Shown piece by piece: positions 3,567-52,424 of a DNA stretch of 64,000 bases (position 1 is its first letter; every line of letters begins with the position of its first letter). A program made the position numbers and the translations under genes. The stretch is from Kiloniella spongiae. GTDB taxonomy: Bacteria; Pseudomonadota; Alphaproteobacteria; Kiloniellales; Kiloniellaceae. The stretch covers positions 1 to 64,000 of the forward strand of contig NZ_LAQL01000008.1 in the NCBI RefSeq assembly GCF_001026905.1, in the 5' to 3' direction. Under the pieces are notes generated by a model that saw only the letters and a program-made list of their open reading frames with translations, did no database searches and was not told where the DNA came from.

Positions 3567-3794
3567 AAGGACCTCAGAATTTGGATTTAAAGAATTTTTA
3601 TTTCCTCCATAAGGTAAGAACTAAAGCCTCATCAAACAAGAACCATAATAGCTTACCAGATGTTTTTTTCAGTTATGACATCAATCACACCATCAATCAC
3701 AGGTGTTCACTAAAACCTTACACTCCAAATTTCTTTACTCGTGCTAGTATTCACCTTCTCGGCCCTATTCCCAAACAATCCAGCGGATACATCC

Positions 3795-5015
3795 ATGCAG
3801 CGCATCAAGCTTACATTCGAAAACTCTCAAGGAAATGAACTCTCAGGGGCCCTAGAGCTGCCCTACCAGAAACCTTTGGGATACGCCCTTTTTGCCCACT
3901 GTTTTTCCTGCGGAAAAGATATCCCCGCCGCAACACGGATCAGCCGTAGCCTGGTTGAAAAGGGATTTGCAGTATTGCGCTTTGACTTTACAGGACTTGG
4001 TGGAAGTAACGGTGATTTTGGCAACACGAATTTCTCCTCCAATGTTGCCGATTTAGTTGCAGCATCAAGATTACTTAAAGAACAGTACGAGGCACCCAGC
4101 CTGTTAATTGGTCATAGCCTTGGCGGCGCAGCAGTCCTTGCTGCAGCAAGAGATATTCCCGAAGCCGAAGCCGTCATCACGATTGGCGCCCCAAGTGATC
4201 CCGAACATGTAAGCCATCTTTTTTCTGATCAGGTAGAAACAATTGAGAAAGATGGCGTCGCCCCTGTCCAGCTGGGCAGCAGAACTTTTAATATAACCAA
4301 GCAGTTCCTGACGGACATATCGAACCACAATATGAAAGAACACATCGGTAATCTGGGAAAAGCACTCCTCGTTTTTCATTCCCCACGAGACACTACAGTA
4401 AGTATTGATGAAGCAAGCAAGATTTTTACAGCTGCCAAACACCCCAGGAGTTTTATCTCTCTGGATCAAGCCGACCACCTATTAACCAATGCAGCAGATG
4501 CAGCCTATGTTGGCCATACAATTGCAGCCTGGGTAGAACGCTATGTATCGTCCTCATCTTCTCCTCAAGACATTACGCCCGCACCAGAAAAAGGGCATGT
4601 CATTGTCAAGGAAGAGAACAAAGCCTTCTTAAGACATATAAAAACAGATCATCACAACTGGCTTGCGGATGAACCCTTGACTATGGGTGGCGGCAATCAG
4701 GGACCAGATCCTTACGAAATGTTACTGGCAGCACTGGGTGCTTGTACATCAATGACAATCCGTATGTACGCCAATCATAAACAATGGCCGCTTGAAGATC
4801 TGGATGTTGAGTTATCGCATACAAGAGAACATTGCCAGGACAGTGCAGATTGCGAACAATCAGGGCACCAGATTGACATCATTACCCGTAATATCAGCCT
4901 TGTAGGCGAAAAACTTACCGAAGAACAACGTCAACGCCTGTTGCAAATTGCCGGTAAATGCCCTGTTCACAAGACATTGGAAAACAAGATTGTTGTAAAA
5001 GACAAGCTAACTTAA
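3795..5015 (+). CDS. Alpha/beta hydrolase fused to an OsmC-family domain
   Basis: 406 residues from the chosen ATG (MQRIKLTF); the open frame extends 18 codons upstream, but that extension lacks similarity to a family start. Residues 1-260 form an alpha/beta hydrolase with nucleophile elbow GHSLGG (Ser108). After a Pro-rich linker at about residue 275, an OsmC/Ohr-type domain follows with the two redox cysteines in LGACTS (about Cys317) and GKCPVHKTL (about Cys389). OsmC domains reduce organic hydroperoxides. This fusion is a known architecture; the hydrolase substrate is unknown. Pairing with yaaA across a 228-bp gap is consistent with oxidative stress, but that is inference. Confidence 0.88.
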   Translation: MQRIKLTFENSQGNELSGALELPYQKPLGYALFAHCFSCGKDIPAATRISRSLVEKGFAVLRFDFTGLGGSNGDFGNTNFSSNVADLVAASRLLKEQYEAPSLLIGHSLGGAAVLAAARDIPEAEAVITIGAPSDPEHVSHLFSDQVETIEKDGVAPVQLGSRTFNITKQFLTDISNHNMKEHIGNLGKALLVFHSPRDTTVSIDEASKIFTAAKHPRSFISLDQADHLLTNAADAAYVGHTIAAWVERYVSSSSSPQDITPAPEKGHVIVKEENKAFLRHIKTDHHNWLADEPLTMGGGNQGPDPYEMLLAALGACTSMTIRMYANHKQWPLEDLDVELSHTREHCQDSADCEQSGHQIDIITRNISLVGEKLTEEQRQRLLQIAGKCPVHKTLENKIVVKDKLT

Positions 5016-5112
5016 GGAAATATAATTCCTTAGGTTAGCTTGCATATCGCTTGAAGTTTCGCCATCAACAATATATACGATTCATATACAAAACATATAT
5101 GGATTCGTTAAT

Positions 5113-46705: not shown

Positions 46706-47905
46706 TTATTCAGCAGCATCAGCAATTGAACTTTGACGAAGGATACCTTGATATATCTCTTCATCACCAACAACACCGACAAGCACACCCTCTTCTGAAA
46801 GTAAGACAGGATTGCCTGTTGATTGACGTAACTCGATCGCGCGCTTCATCGTTATCTCAGGCGAAGCAGTCACGATATTGCAATCGGGAATATCATCCAA
46901 AGAATGATCCGCTTCAAAGCTAAAGACCGGTAACTCTTCTTTATCTTCAAAGGTAACTTTTTGCACCGCCCCTTTACTATCCAATGCCACCTTGAAGGCA
47001 TCATATTTATCCAAAATAACACGATCACCATCTTTGCGAAGGTCGCTGACAGGTGTCATCAATGACGCGCAACGCAGAACATTCAATGGGTTCATATGCG
47101 CAACAAACTCAGCAACATATTCGTTCGCAGGGTTCAGAACAATTTCTTCAGGCTCACCGTACTGAACGATACGTCCCCCTTCCATGATCGCGATATGCGT
47201 ACCAATCTTCAGCGCTTCATCAAGATCATGGCTTACAAAGACAATCGTCTTTTTCAGGTTTCTCTGTAGTTCAAGTAACTCATCTTGCAAGTGATCCCTA
47301 ATCAAAGGATCCAAAGCCGAGAAAGGCTCGTCCATCAATAGAATATCTGCATCTGTAGCGAATGCACGCGCAAGCCCCACACGCTGTTGCATTCCACCAG
47401 ATAGCTCATGCGCGTATTTGTCTTTCCATTGATCCAAGCTAACCATCTTGAGCTTTTCTTCGACAATGGCTTCACGCTCGGCTTTGGGCATACCTTTAAG
47501 TTCCAACCCTAAACCAACATTCTCTGACACCGTCCGCCAAGGCAAAAGCGCAAACTGTTGAAAAACCATAGAAACCCGTTCCATACGCATATGACGCAGT
47601 GTTTTCGCATCGCAGGACGCAACATCAATGAGGTCATCACCATCACGAACGAGAACTTCGCCCCGTGTGACTTTATTCAAGCCGTTCACGGCACGAAGCA
47701 ACGTTGATTTACCTGAACCGGAAAGCCCCATTAGAACGCATATTTCGCCTTCTTCAATTTTGATAGAACCATCTGCGACACCAAGAACACATCCGGTTTT
47801 TTCCAAAATTTCTTCTCGGGTCTTGCCCGCATCAACCATTGGAATGGCTTCTTGCTGATTATCGCCAAAAACAATATCGACTTTTTTAAATTCTACAGCT
47901 GTCAT
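46706..47905 (-). CDS. choV: Choline ABC transporter ATP-binding protein
   Basis: 399 residues of the ProV/OpuAA type. Walker A GLSGSGKSTLL, signature LSGGMQQRVGLARA, Walker B DILLMDEPFSALDPL, then a C-terminal CBS-like regulatory region (about 280-395; ITMKRAIELRQSTGNPVLLSEEGVLVGVV, in parts). It powers quaternary-amine uptake with ChoW and ChoX. The C-terminal residues read SSIADAAE. Confidence 0.92.
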   Translation of the reverse strand: MTAVEFKKVDIVFGDNQQEAIPMVDAGKTREEILEKTGCVLGVADGSIKIEEGEICVLMGLSGSGKSTLLRAVNGLNKVTRGEVLVRDGDDLIDVASCDAKTLRHMRMERVSMVFQQFALLPWRTVSENVGLGLELKGMPKAEREAIVEEKLKMVSLDQWKDKYAHELSGGMQQRVGLARAFATDADILLMDEPFSALDPLIRDHLQDELLELQRNLKKTIVFVSHDLDEALKIGTHIAIMEGGRIVQYGEPEEIVLNPANEYVAEFVAHMNPLNVLRCASLMTPVSDLRKDGDRVILDKYDAFKVALDSKGAVQKVTFEDKEELPVFSFEADHSLDDIPDCNIVTASPEITMKRAIELRQSTGNPVLLSEEGVLVGVVGDEEIYQGILRQSSIADAAE

Positions 47906-47925: not shown

Positions 47926-48786
47926 TTAAGCGCCATCAACCGGTGCATTACGTTGCTTACACAGGCGATCCAACAAAATCGCAACAACAACAATCGCGAG
48001 ACCAGCTTCAATGCCCATATCAATTTGACGAGAATTCAAAGCACGAACAACAGGCTTACCAAGACCACTTGCGCCAACCAAAGCCCCAATCACCACCATA
48101 GAGAGCGAGAGCATAATACACTGCGTCACCCCAGCCATAATCGTCGGCAAGGCGTATGGAATTTCTACCTTCCAAAGTAATTGTTTCTTCGTTGCCCCAA
48201 AAGACTCAGCCGCTTCGATCAAAGGCTTAGGCACAGATGACACACCCAAATGAGTCAGACGGACAGGCGCAGCAACAGCAAAAATAACCGTTGCAACAAG
48301 CGCAGGCACCATTCCGAGACCAAAGAGTGTCATCGCAGGAATAAGATAAACAAATGTCGGGATTGTCTGCAAAAGGTCAAGGACAGGTCGTAAGAGTGAA
48401 TACAACCACGGTCGGTGAGCCGCCGCAATACCAAGAGGAACGCCCGTAATCATACAAACGACCGTGGCATAAACGACAAGAACAAGAGATTCAATTGTCT
48501 CTGTCCAATAACCCAGGTTGACGATGAAAAGCAGAGACAGAAATACAAACAGGGAAAGTTTCCATGTACGCTGTAAATACTGTGCAAGTCCGGTAATCAA
48601 AATGATCAACACGATTGACGGTATGAACAAAAGCATGTCCACGGTTCCATCAATCAGGAAACTACCACCATCAGTTATTGCGTCAAAAAAACCCGCAAAG
48701 TTATCGATTAGAAAGTCGAAAAAACTTTCCCCCCATTTCCCAACGGGAATTTTATGGTCAACTAACCATTGCTCGATACCGGACAT
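47926..48786 (-). CDS. choW: Choline ABC transporter permease
   Basis: 286 residues from ATG 48786, which is preceded by GAGGGA; the frame opens 12 codons earlier without a site. ProW/ChoW type, with about six membrane segments and the EAA loop IEAAESFGATKKQLLWKVEIPYALPTIMAGV (cited in parts). It lies between choX and choV in the usual choXWV order. Confidence 0.91.
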   Translation of the reverse strand: MSGIEQWLVDHKIPVGKWGESFFDFLIDNFAGFFDAITDGGSFLIDGTVDMLLFIPSIVLIILITGLAQYLQRTWKLSLFVFLSLLFIVNLGYWTETIESLVLVVYATVVCMITGVPLGIAAAHRPWLYSLLRPVLDLLQTIPTFVYLIPAMTLFGLGMVPALVATVIFAVAAPVRLTHLGVSSVPKPLIEAAESFGATKKQLLWKVEIPYALPTIMAGVTQCIMLSLSMVVIGALVGASGLGKPVVRALNSRQIDMGIEAGLAIVVVAILLDRLCKQRNAPVDGA

Positions 48787-48979
48787 TGTCAATCCCTCTG
48801 CTCCAAAGCGAACCCATAACATGACTGCTTATGTGTTCTTTTGTTCATTATCACCAGTTTCTCTGGGTAACAGATTATTATGAATAATCTATATTTCCAT
48901 CACTGGTTTTATTTTTACCTAACATACAAGAGGGCCGACAGAATGCCAGCCCTCTGTAAAATCTTATCTGGCGTCAGAT

Positions 48980-49930
48980 TTAAAGGCCAAGGTGACCTTT
49001 CACTGCTGCAAGACCATCACCACCGTCAAATGTAGTTACACCTGCAAGCCACGCATCCAATGCACCAGGGTTGGCCTTCAGCCACTCAGTTGCTGCAATC
49101 GGGCCTTCTTTACCATCATCAAGAATGGCACCCATGATTTCATTTTCCATGGCAAGTGTGAAGCCCAGGTTATCCAGAAGCTTACCCATGTTCGGGCACT
49201 CACTTGCGTAGCCTTTTCTAACATTTGTAAGAACATTCGCGCCACCAAAGTTAGGGCCGAAAATGTCATCACCGCCCGTTAGGTAGGTAAGTTCAAAGTT
49301 CGCATTCATCGGGTGTGGAGCCCAACCAAGGAAAACAACACCTTTTTCACGGCGCGTAGAACGTGCAACCTGAGACAACATACCGGCTTCGGATGATTCA
49401 ACAACTTCAAAACCTTTGAGACCAAAAGTGTCTTGGTCGATCATATCCTGAATAAGGCGGTTACCGTCGTTACCGGGCTCAATACCGTAGATTTTGCCAT
49501 CAAGATCGTCTTTAAATTTTGCGATATCAGCAAAATCTTTCAAACCTTTGTCAGCAAGATAAGTTGGAACAGCAAGTGTATATTTAGCCCCTTCAAGATT
49601 CACACGAACGGTCTCAACAGAACCTTCATCACGATAAGGTGCGATATCGGCTTCCATCGTTGGCATCCAGTTACCAAGAAAAACATCAACGTCGCCATTC
49701 TTTAGACCTGCATAGGTCACCGGAACAGAAAGGATTTGCGTTTCCGGTTGATAGCCAAGGCCTTCCAGAACAACAGATGCGACTGCCGTTGTTGCAGTGA
49801 TATCAGTCCATCCAACATCGGAAAAAGTAACAGATTGACAGCTAGCTGGGTCAGCAGCTTGCGCCCCAGTTGAAAAACCAGCCGCAGCGATGGCTAGTGT
49901 ACTAGCCGAAATCAAGTGTTTGAGGTTCAT
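48980..49930 (-). CDS. choX: Choline-binding periplasmic protein
   Basis: 316 residues with a cleaved signal peptide (likely after GAQA, residue 25). The choline/betaine-binding aromatic box is visible as three Trp motifs: FSDVGWTDI, FLGNWMPTM and FLGWAPHPM, with Asp in WTDI, as in Rhizobium ChoX. First gene of choXWV. The 358-bp gap upstream to betI contains the 52-bp BetI palindrome, so choline-dependent control is likely. Confidence 0.93.
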   Translation of the reverse strand: MNLKHLISASTLAIAAAGFSTGAQAADPASCQSVTFSDVGWTDITATTAVASVVLEGLGYQPETQILSVPVTYAGLKNGDVDVFLGNWMPTMEADIAPYRDEGSVETVRVNLEGAKYTLAVPTYLADKGLKDFADIAKFKDDLDGKIYGIEPGNDGNRLIQDMIDQDTFGLKGFEVVESSEAGMLSQVARSTRREKGVVFLGWAPHPMNANFELTYLTGGDDIFGPNFGGANVLTNVRKGYASECPNMGKLLDNLGFTLAMENEIMGAILDDGKEGPIAATEWLKANPGALDAWLAGVTTFDGGDGLAAVKGHLGL

Positions 49931-50073
49931 TCACTTGTCTCCATTTTTATGCCACAAGAGGACCTCGTGGCTCTAATTGATTTTAGCAAGATACCCGCAA
50001 GTTCATTATTATTCTAGCAGGATATTTGCCTGATTAACTCCCTAGTACGATCGAAACTATCGTCGTAACTCCA

Positions 50074-50125
50074 CTATCAATAATTTATTTTGATTGAACG
50101 TTCAATCAAAATAAATTATTGATAG
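50074..50125. promoter_or_regulatory. BetI operator within a perfect 52-bp palindrome
   Basis: Bases 50074-50099 and 50100-50125 are exact reverse complements with no spacer. The centre, TTGATTGAACGTTCAATCAA (50090-50109), matches the known BetI operator core. The palindrome lies between divergent choX and betI, so one site can repress both, as known for choline-relieved BetI. The outer 16 bases on each side (TTATTGATAG-like) are more than BetI needs. Confidence 0.9.
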
Positions 50126-50288
50126 ACATAACGCAGTCAGTAACAGATGAACAAAGTCTATGATTTAACAAATAAAATCAAAAGCTAAGTTCAAAAAAAT
50201 GCGTCGCGAAAACAGGAAATAGACACACATATTTTTTGTTTCAATGTCTCTCTAAGAACTGAAACATTGGATAAAAAGGATACAGATC

Positions 50289-50876
50289 TTGCCAAAAGTC
50301 GGAATGGAAGAGATTCGGAAAACCCAGTTGATCGAAGCAACAATTGCTATGATCCACGAGGAAGGGTTTACCAATGCCAGCATTTCGAAAATAAGCAAAC
50401 GTGCGGGCCTGTCTTCGGGGATTGTTGCCCACTACTTTGACGATAAATCAGGCTTGTTAACCGCAACGCTACAATATCTCATGCGTAAGCTGGGCGAAGA
50501 AACAAAAAAACAACTGGAACACGCCAACACACCAATTGAACGGCTGCTTGCCGTCGTGAATTCAAACTTTTCAGATGAGCAATTCAAACCGGGCGTGGTT
50601 GATGTTTGGTTGGCGTTCTGGGCTTTGGTTCCAACTTCAGAAAAATTGGGCCGCCTGCACAAAATCAATGAACGGCGCATGCAGAGCAATTTTCAACATG
50701 CGTTAAAACCTTTACTCCCCGAACAGATGGTTGCCAGTACAGCTACAGGCCTAGCTGCTATGGTCGAGGGACTATGGATACGATGTGCTCTGACCGAAGG
50801 CGGGGTCACCCCGAAGGAAGCCATAACAATTATGGAAAGTTACATCAGCAGCCAAATACTGGCACATCAAAAGTAG
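50289..50876 (+). CDS. betI: Choline-responsive repressor BetI
   Basis: 195 residues from a TTG start at 50289 with AAAAAGGA 8 bases upstream; the resulting N-terminus MPKVGMEEIRKTQLIEATI matches BetI. TetR-type HTH (FTNASISKISKRAGLSSGIVAHYFDDKSGLL, in parts) is followed by a ligand domain with aromatic residues LAFWALVPTSEKLGRLHKINERRMQSN typical of BetI. It represses bet and cho genes without choline. betB follows after an 81-bp gap. Confidence 0.94.
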   Translation: MPKVGMEEIRKTQLIEATIAMIHEEGFTNASISKISKRAGLSSGIVAHYFDDKSGLLTATLQYLMRKLGEETKKQLEHANTPIERLLAVVNSNFSDEQFKPGVVDVWLAFWALVPTSEKLGRLHKINERRMQSNFQHALKPLLPEQMVASTATGLAAMVEGLWIRCALTEGGVTPKEAITIMESYISSQILAHQK

Positions 50877-50957: not shown

Positions 50958-52424
50958 ATGGCAAAGCTTCCTGCTCAACAGCTTTACATCAACGGCAAGT
51001 ACACAAACGCTACATCAAGTGAAACATTTGAGACAATAAATCCCGCGACTGGTGACGTTATTTGTGATGTCCAGATTGCCTCAGCAGAAGATGTTGATAA
51101 GGCAGTTGAAGCCGCCAAGGCAGGTTTCAAGGTCTGGTCAAAAATGAGTGGTACCGAAAGAAGCCGCATTCTCTTAAAAGCAGTTGCCCTGCTTCGCGAA
51201 CGGAATGACGAGCTTGCTGCCCTTGAAGTCACCGACACAGGAAAACCAATGCAGGAAGCAAACTGCGTTGATGTAGAATCTGGTGCGGAATGCATTGAAT
51301 ATTTCGCTGGCCTTGCTGCCTCTATCAATGGTGAGCACATACAACTCGCAAATGGCAACTTTGCCTATACCCGTAAAGAACCCCTGGGTGTTTGTGCTGC
51401 CATCGGCGCATGGAACTATCCAATTCAGATTGCTTGCTGGAAATCTGCACCTGCTCTCGCATGCGGGAATGCTGTGATCTATAAAGCATCAGAAGTGACC
51501 CCGCTTACTGCGTTAAAATTAGCTGAAATCTATACCGAAGCAGGTTTACCAGACGGTGTTTTCAATGTCGTGTCCGGTTTGGGATCCGTTGGTCAAATGT
51601 TGGCAGAGCACGAAGGTATCGAGAAAATCTCCCTGACAGGTTCCGTGCCTACCGGGAAGCGTGTGATGGAATCAGCCTCAAAAACCCTAAAGCACGTAAC
51701 ACTTGAGCTCGGCGGCAAATCCCCCCTTATCGTATTCGATGACGCAAACCTGGATAACGCGGTATCAGCCGCGATGCTTGCAAACTTCTATACACAAGGT
51801 GAAATTTGCTCCAACGGAACCCGCGTCTATGTTCACGATGACATTAAGGATGCCTTTTTGGAAAAGCTCGTTGACCGTACATCGAAGATGATCATTGGTG
51901 ACCCAATGGATCTGGAAACTCATGTCGGGTCGCTCATCCATAAAGAGCACATGGAAAAGGTTCTGAGCTATATCGAGATAGGTAAAAACGAGGGTGCAAC
52001 ACTGGCCTATGGCGGTCAACAGATCTCTGTAAAAGGCTTCGAAAAAGGCTGTTTTGTCGAACCCGCAATCTTCACAGACGTAAAGGCAGATATGCGCATC
52101 GCCAAAGAAGAAATCTTTGGTGCTGTTATGTCTGTCATCACCTTCTCAGATGAAGATGAAGTCGTCGCCGCTGCCAACGACACACAATTTGGCTTGGCAG
52201 CAGGTGTCTTCACACAGGATATCAATCGTGCGCATCGCGTGATTGAAAACCTCGAAGCTGGAACCTGCTGGATCAACAATTATAACATAACCCCAATCGA
52301 AATGCCTTTTGGTGGATACAAACAATCTGGTATTGGTCGTGAAAATGGTACCGCGGCAATCAATCACTTTACTCAGCTAAAGTCTGTGTATGTTGAGATG
52401 GGTGATGTAGATTGTCCTTACTAG
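50958..52424 (+). CDS. betB: Betaine aldehyde dehydrogenase
   Basis: 488 residues. Oxidises betaine aldehyde to glycine betaine with NAD(P)+. General base Glu250 in [12 protein letters not shown] and nucleophile Cys284 in [13 protein letters not shown] are present, with the potassium/NAD region [26 protein letters not shown] typical of BetB (cited in part). Second gene after betI; betA, which usually follows, is absent, and a HIT-protein gene stands in its place. Confidence 0.94.

Follow-up and report, generated by a model that had tools for sequence, protein, structure and literature searches.

A 52-bp perfect palindrome around a predicted BetI operator is conserved in the genus Kiloniella and was probably made by template switching

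We explored a 64-kb window of the Kiloniella spongiae genome (the whole stretch of DNA analysed, 64,000 nucleotides) and found that the predicted BetI operator between the divergent choXWV and betI-betB genes lies at the centre of a 52-bp perfect palindrome, whose outer arms are as conserved within the genus as the operator core and, among the loci examined, are restricted to Kiloniella. No further BetI site was detected in the arms, and the other BetI operator of this genome, which precedes betI2-betA, carries a mirror-copied arm. We class the element as a BetI operator whose unusually extended symmetry is under selection and was probably made by template switching. Our best overall explanation, to which we give slightly less than even chances, places this operator within mirror-image divergent promoters whose symmetry would have arisen by template switching and been kept by selection.

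The minus strand encodes a choline ABC transporter consisting of the substrate-binding protein ChoX (48980-49930; TIGR03414, 488.8 bits for a cut-off of 379.05), the permease ChoW (47926-48822; TIGR03416, 409.3 bits, cut-off 363) and the ATP-binding protein ChoV (46706-47905; TIGR03415, 584.1 bits, cut-off 483.75). Divergent from choX, on the plus strand, are betI (50289-50876, TTG start), encoding a TetR-type choline-responsive repressor (TIGR03384, 224 bits, cut-off 201.3; NF001978, 224.1 bits, cut-off 118), and betB (50958-52424), encoding a betaine-aldehyde dehydrogenase (NF009725, 819.5 bits, cut-off 593; TIGR01804, 700.2 bits, cut-off 668.6). The palindrome sits in the divergent intergenic region, separated by 143 nt from choX (start at 49930) and by 163 nt from betI (start at 50289). 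The choline genes of the source genome are split, with betI-betB and choXWV at this locus and betI2-betA at another. According to PMC12442346, the BetI proteins of E. coli, S. meliloti and Acinetobacter are repressors that respond to choline.

The repeat search returned two arms of 26 nt each (50074-50099 and 50100-50125), 100% complementary and with 0 nt between them, confirming both the 52-bp perfect palindrome of the preliminary description and its claim that the symmetry runs past the core, namely by 16 nt on each side of 50090-50109. The runner-up among perfect zero-loop palindromes in the window measures 14 bp. With a pairing probability of about 0.34 in DNA of roughly 80% A+T, our own arithmetic gives an expectation of 0.34^26 x 4.5 Mb, or about 3e-6 per genome, for a palindrome of 52 bp. 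Zero-loop palindromes scoring at least 23 numbered three in 456,618 bases of the source genome (the window plus 392,618 further bases), a count to be read as a background rate and not as an unbiased enrichment, the sampled contigs having been picked for carrying both operators. These three are the choX/betI element, the betI2-betA operator and one palindrome between convergent genes; the maximum score in a single block-shuffled control of the same bases was 10. The assembly artefact that the preliminary description had envisaged is ruled out by the presence of the element in eight separate assemblies, including those of K. laminariae DSM 19542, of Kiloniella strain EL199 and of metagenome-assembled genomes. 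A mobile or repeated element was also considered and rejected: the 25-nt arm pattern, searched with up to 3 mismatches, is present in eight of the nine genomes of the genus, where it occurs once per strand, corresponding to the two arms themselves, and finds no match in the ninth (G005).

In what follows, G000 designates the source genome, G001 Kiloniella sp. EL199 and G002 K. laminariae DSM 19542. Across the eight Kiloniella genomes, 49 of the 52 columns of the palindrome are invariant. It measures 52 bp in four genomes, 50 bp in G006 and 56 bp in G008, and is perfect in all of these; the copies of G002 and G003 have a C to A change at one position of the core and an altered right end, and retain 48 bp with a single mismatched pair. 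The left outer arm (50074-50089) is invariant at 16 of 16 columns and the right outer arm (50110-50125) at 14 of 16, its changes being confined to the two outermost columns. Counting ungapped columns only, parsimony places 3 changes at the 32 sites of the outer arms and 1 at the 20 sites of the core, versus 93 in the 137 columns of the choX-side spacer and 234 in the 149 columns of the betI-side spacer. On the same basis, changed columns amount to 2/32 in the arms against 72/137 (53%) in the choX-side spacer (Fisher p 4e-7) and 128/149 (86%) in the betI-side spacer (Fisher p 3e-18), while the outer arms do not differ from the core (Fisher p = 1). The most divergent perfect copy, that of G008 (L008), keeps 52/52 positions of the palindrome and 95/147 and 76/164 of the spacers. 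Since arms and core are equally conserved next to variable spacers, selection appears to constrain the sequence of the arms no less tightly than that of the core. The comparison of arms among close relatives that the preliminary description had proposed thus finds the outer arms kept, and not just the 20-bp core. In G005, which is 77% complete, the choX/betI locus was not found, the best BetI match there being a paralogue with 47% identity. By eye, G008 reads CTCTATC...GATAGAG and G002/G003 read CTCTATC...GAT-GAG, which suggests, from these sequences, that the ancestral Kiloniella palindrome measured 56 bp and that its outermost pairs decayed later without correction.

Thirty loci were examined, of which 21 lie outside Kiloniella; 20 of them, all but L032, have choX in divergent orientation to betI (L031 is a Kiloniella paralogue). 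At these 21 loci the core is kept, and the symmetry covers about 14-40 bp, mostly with mismatches, for scores of at most 14 versus 21-28 in Kiloniella. Long outer arms were hence not seen outside Kiloniella among the loci examined, despite the kept gene layout. The operator palindromes of other genera of the family reach 24-40 bp, most with mismatches, compared with 48-56 bp in Kiloniella. Among the best 80 of 581 loci from named genomes, which partly share contigs with the 30-locus set, scores range from 21 to 28 in Kiloniella and reach at most 13 elsewhere, in Pelagibius (L056, L058) and in two other Kiloniellales or Rhodospirillales genomes (L061, L069). A general symmetry of BetI operators outside the core is not supported either: the 71 distinct non-Kiloniella sites have on average 5.1 of 14 outer pairs matched, versus 4.6 in a control pairing the flanks of different loci (control maximum 12) and 12 to 14 at the Kiloniella sites, and at least 9 matched outer pairs were observed at 3 of the 71 sites where about 1.3 are expected.

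The 20-bp core TTGATTGAACGTTCAATCAA (50090-50109, centred on 50099/50100) corresponds at 20 of 20 positions to the TTGATTGAACGTTCAATCAA-like palindrome found upstream of betI. We examined 110 betI loci, of which 95 carry a core of at least 15/20 upstream of betI (79 distinct), the other 15 being dropped as weaker or too near the slice edge. The preliminary description had taken the palindrome to surround a BetI operator, and it does surround a predicted BetI-type site ahead of a betI gene recognised above the TIGR03384 cut-off. It had also judged the symmetry too long for one TetR dimer, in line with the 29-bp footprint that PMC12442346 reports for Ruegeria pomeroyi BetI1, around ATTGACG*CGTCAAT at betI1C. 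The betI1C operator resembles that of Kiloniella in having a TetR-type palindromic core over a predicted -35 box, upstream of betI and in the company of choline genes, but the Kiloniella symmetry is perfect over 52 bp and, across the genus, its outer arms are conserved like the core. At a BetI operator, conserved sequence can thus extend well past a 29-bp footprint, and core-only operator calls may miss functional sequence.

We propose that the palindrome would work as a double-stranded regulatory element with one BetI dimer on the 20-bp core. Without choline, BetI would repress a divergent pair of mirror-image promoters, the TTGATT of the core serving in each direction as -35 box and the TAAATT of the arm as -10 box (50087 to 50082 in the left arm, 50112 to 50117 in the right arm), with a 16-bp spacer. 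The left outer arm would hold the -10 box and start region of choXWV on the minus strand, and the right outer arm those of betI on the plus strand. Transcription would start near the palindrome edges, at about 50124 and 50075, such that the palindrome would run roughly from start to start (about 52 bp), and choXWV and betI-betB would rise and fall together. We infer the promoters and their start sites mainly from position, divergent layout and conservation, which point to them weakly. Indeed, the Kiloniella TTGATT-16-TAAATT arrangement matches, in both directions, 4/6 of the -35 consensus and 4/6 of TATAAT (8/12), below the 9-of-12 threshold of the promoter scan. Shuffled flanks reach a 4/6 match to the -10 box in about 17 of 71 cases, spacings of 14 and 18 bp score equally, and the mean -10 match over all 79 sites peaks at spacers of 14-15 on both sides, not 16. 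The 143 and 163 nt that separate the palindrome from the genes also speak against the mirror promoters. At the other BetI operators, a -10-like hexamer of at least 5/6 at a spacer of 15-19 occurs on the betI-ward flank in 24/71 and on the opposite flank in 0/71 (2.9 when shuffled), and one of at least 4/6 in 37/71 and 22/71, respectively (17.4 when shuffled), many of the 71 sites coming from related species and not being independent. From this betI-ward excess, the outer hexamer of the core may be the -35 box of a betI promoter in part of the species. PMC10268837 describes bidirectional promoters arising from symmetric elements, which share with our proposal transcription in both directions as a consequence of the DNA sequence; unlike these, the promoters proposed here would mirror each other across a repressor site, with about 52 bp between their start sites.

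The arms could alternatively bind a second protein, most plausibly IHF, which would bend the DNA on either flank of the BetI core and adjust the activity of both promoters; we consider this unlikely as the main explanation, and both IHF and the mirror promoters could hold. The IHF-like motif WATCAANNNNTTR was scanned after the fact. The sequence TATCAATAATTTA fits it once per arm in mirror orientation (50075-50087 on the plus strand, 50112-50124 on the minus strand), and two of the three strict consensus matches in the whole 64-kb window fall in the palindrome. The left-arm match is invariant in 8/8 genomes, and IHF would account for the conserved bases beyond the -10 box, but G002 and G003 lack the first W of the right-arm match. 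A chance match in sequence this AT-rich has a probability of about 0.007 by our own arithmetic, before counting the other motifs that could be tried, and inspection by eye of the arms of the betI2-betA operator of the source genome found no such match. A himA match over the curated cut-off was obtained in eight of the nine genomes of the genus, the incomplete G005 having only a weaker, HU-like match, and it indicates that IHF is likely present, nothing more.

As regards the proposed template-switch origin, a pattern of this kind is seen at the second operator (contig C44, 125857-125908; L187:5857-5908), which is located upstream of betI2-betA and spans 52 bp with 25 of 26 pairs matched and arms differing from those of choX/betI. 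It was first met in a class-wide pattern search that matched 33 of 385 genomes, the other matches, viewed by eye, entering no count. Core matches with at most 3 mismatches occur in the source genome at just the choX/betI and betI2-betA sites; because the reversed control pattern also matched once, at 3 mismatches, a match at that level is weak by itself, and the second operator was accepted as a BetI site because betI2 adjoins it. Judging from the translations, we take the gene beyond betI2 on this contig to be a GMC-type choline dehydrogenase (betA), and the neighbour of betI2 on the other side to be a prepilin-peptidase-like gene.

The symmetry of this operator amounts to 25/26 pairs in G000 versus 15/26 in the close relative G007. 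The two genomes differ at 11/26 positions of the left arm and 4/26 of the right arm, and G000 and G001 at 11/26 and 3/26; the comparisons with G001, G004, G006 and G008 give the same picture (left 11-13/26, right 3-7/26). The left arm of G000 is the mirror of the right arm of G007 at all but 5 positions, and 10 of the 11 pairs unmatched in G007 are matched in G000. The remaining one is third from the centre, where the loop of a hairpin would be, so that the loop was left untouched. The comparison with close relatives thus shows that in G000 a complementary copy of one arm has replaced the other, as quasipalindrome template switching would do. We call G007 a close relative and not a proven sister because the fork between G000, G007 and G001+G004 is unsettled in the betI2-betA tree, as is that between G000, G006 and G007 in the betI-betB tree. 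Comparable arms are absent from this operator in six of the nine genomes of the genus, including G007 and G001 (operator palindromes scoring at most 8). G004 and G006 carry different arms of 26 nt around a 10-nt loop (L163:1757-1818 and L165:1761-1822), 96% and 92% complementary, and are not sisters in the betI2-betA tree; their shared type of arm may stem from a single event combined with recombination, from two events, or from loss elsewhere. No obvious choline gene lies on the side of the mirrored arm of G000, and close relatives do not share this arm, so that the symmetry at betI2-betA need have no function.

In E. coli, quasipalindrome template switching is an established process (PMC7202029), and template switching has been proposed for RNA stems (PMC8794818). 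At choX/betI, the symmetry past the core would have arisen in the Kiloniella ancestor, perhaps then over 56 bp, and probably by the same process: a stalled nascent strand would have copied one promoter half across the operator, and the mirrored sequence would then have been kept by purifying selection. The origin is inferred at this locus, where neither arm is clearly ancestral and no relative has an intermediate form, so that the event cannot be polarised. The quasipalindrome products of the E. coli QP reporters (PMC7202029) and the RNA stems (PMC8794818) resemble betI2-betA in that one arm is copied, the repeat becomes more perfect and the loop is untouched. Unlike these cases, the Kiloniella examples are natural operators of a marine alphaproteobacterium, one of them with long sequence conservation afterwards. 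We tentatively put forward a broader proposal, which we hold possible but would not bet on: short repressor operators would seed template switching, so that one mutation would convert a one-sided regulated promoter into a symmetric promoter active both ways; in Kiloniella this would have occurred at each of the two BetI operators, with the choX/betI product captured by selection and nearly unchanged since the genus arose. If true, coordinated divergent promoters would be obtainable in one step from an already known copying error, and three states would be on display in Kiloniella, namely relatives without a copy, a young copy (betI2-betA in the source genome) and an old, selected copy (choX/betI). 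Among the literature matches listed, none dealt with long palindromes at BetI operators or with bacterial operators made by template switching, which is weak evidence, subscription papers being mostly uncovered.

The same process could also have produced functionless arms, a mutational product that template switching continually re-perfects. Such turnover is visible at the betI2-betA operator, and the presence of long palindromes at the two BetI operators of a single genome suggests a mutational bias. Correction, however, preserves symmetry and not sequence, whereas the choX/betI sequence is nearly frozen genus-wide and its spacers are not; moreover, asymmetries (the core C to A change in G002/G003 and the outermost pairs) stayed uncorrected. 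We regard functionless arms at choX/betI as improbable.

Another reading is selection on a nucleic-acid fold, either a cruciform under supercoiling or a hairpin in an mRNA leader transcribed from a promoter outside the palindrome; if the mirror promoters are correct, neither mRNA would contain a hairpin. The palindrome can fold, as the preliminary description had supposed, with a predicted energy of -28.2 kcal/mol as RNA (z -9.7) and -20.6 as DNA, both strands giving a 24-bp stem with a 4-nt loop, and the arms of betI2-betA stay paired although they differ in sequence between G000 and G004/G006. At choX/betI, however, no pair has changed on both sides in the eight genomes, and pairing is disrupted by the few existing changes, namely those of the terminal bases and the C to A change in the core of G002/G003. 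A frozen sequence whose changes break pairs is better explained by protein recognition of DNA than by selection on pairing, and we judge a selected fold highly improbable. Two related candidates were rejected: no intrinsic terminator (GC-containing stem followed by a T run) was found in 49900-50320, and no known RNA element matched at the gathering level of Rfam, the 19 sub-threshold matches belonging mostly to microRNA-precursor models.

That two or more BetI dimers sit side by side on the 52 bp, as the preliminary description had also suggested, is very unlikely. Some TetR-family operators take pairs of dimers, and 52 bp could hold two overlapping 29-bp footprints, but comparable arms were not seen at the BetI operators examined from other genera. 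With a weight matrix built from 71 other distinct sites (the weakest training site scoring 15.5), the core scores 34.1 and registers shifted by 4 bases score -5.3, and the best windows centred outside the core reach -15.8 when overlapping an arm and -15.3 elsewhere in the intergenic region; the arms hence hold no BetI-like window that the matrix detects. PMC12442346 describes in R. pomeroyi a betI2-betTA divergon which, as here, combines two betI genes in one alphaproteobacterium with an operator between divergent choline genes; there, BetI2 has two overlapping boxes, whereas a second box is not detectable at choX/betI.

Several further palindromes were encountered. The third high-scoring palindrome of the source genome, on contig C75 (L179:10169-10220), is likewise perfect over 52 bp. 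It is GC-containing and has A/T tracts, and the convergent genes on its two sides read as flgH and dksA; it looks like a two-way terminator. Its arms, like those of both BetI operators, measure exactly 26 nt, perhaps by coincidence. Within the window, a 40-bp imperfect palindrome at 5003-5042, at the end of a hydrolase/OsmC-type ORF (3741-5015), is probably a terminator. In G008, near a further BetI-like gene (37% identity), L168:1981-2010 holds the 30-bp near-perfect palindrome TAAAATATTGAATGAGTATTCAATATTTTA. Another Kiloniellales genus (L024, L025 and L026) has operator palindromes about 60-100 bases upstream of betI, which in L025 and L026 measure 38 bp, with a paired two-base insertion in both arms relative to the 30-bp form of L024, and have 10 and 9 of 14 outer pairs matched; the matched insertion is suggestive, though only that, of the same mirror copying. 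Lastly, a patch of the choX leader (TTGCCTGATTAACTCCCT and its neighbours, window positions 50004-50048) is moderately conserved, with 10-12 of 20 columns invariant in the eight genomes, unlike the betI-side spacer. It has no Rfam match at gathering level and is possibly a leader element or a second choX promoter.
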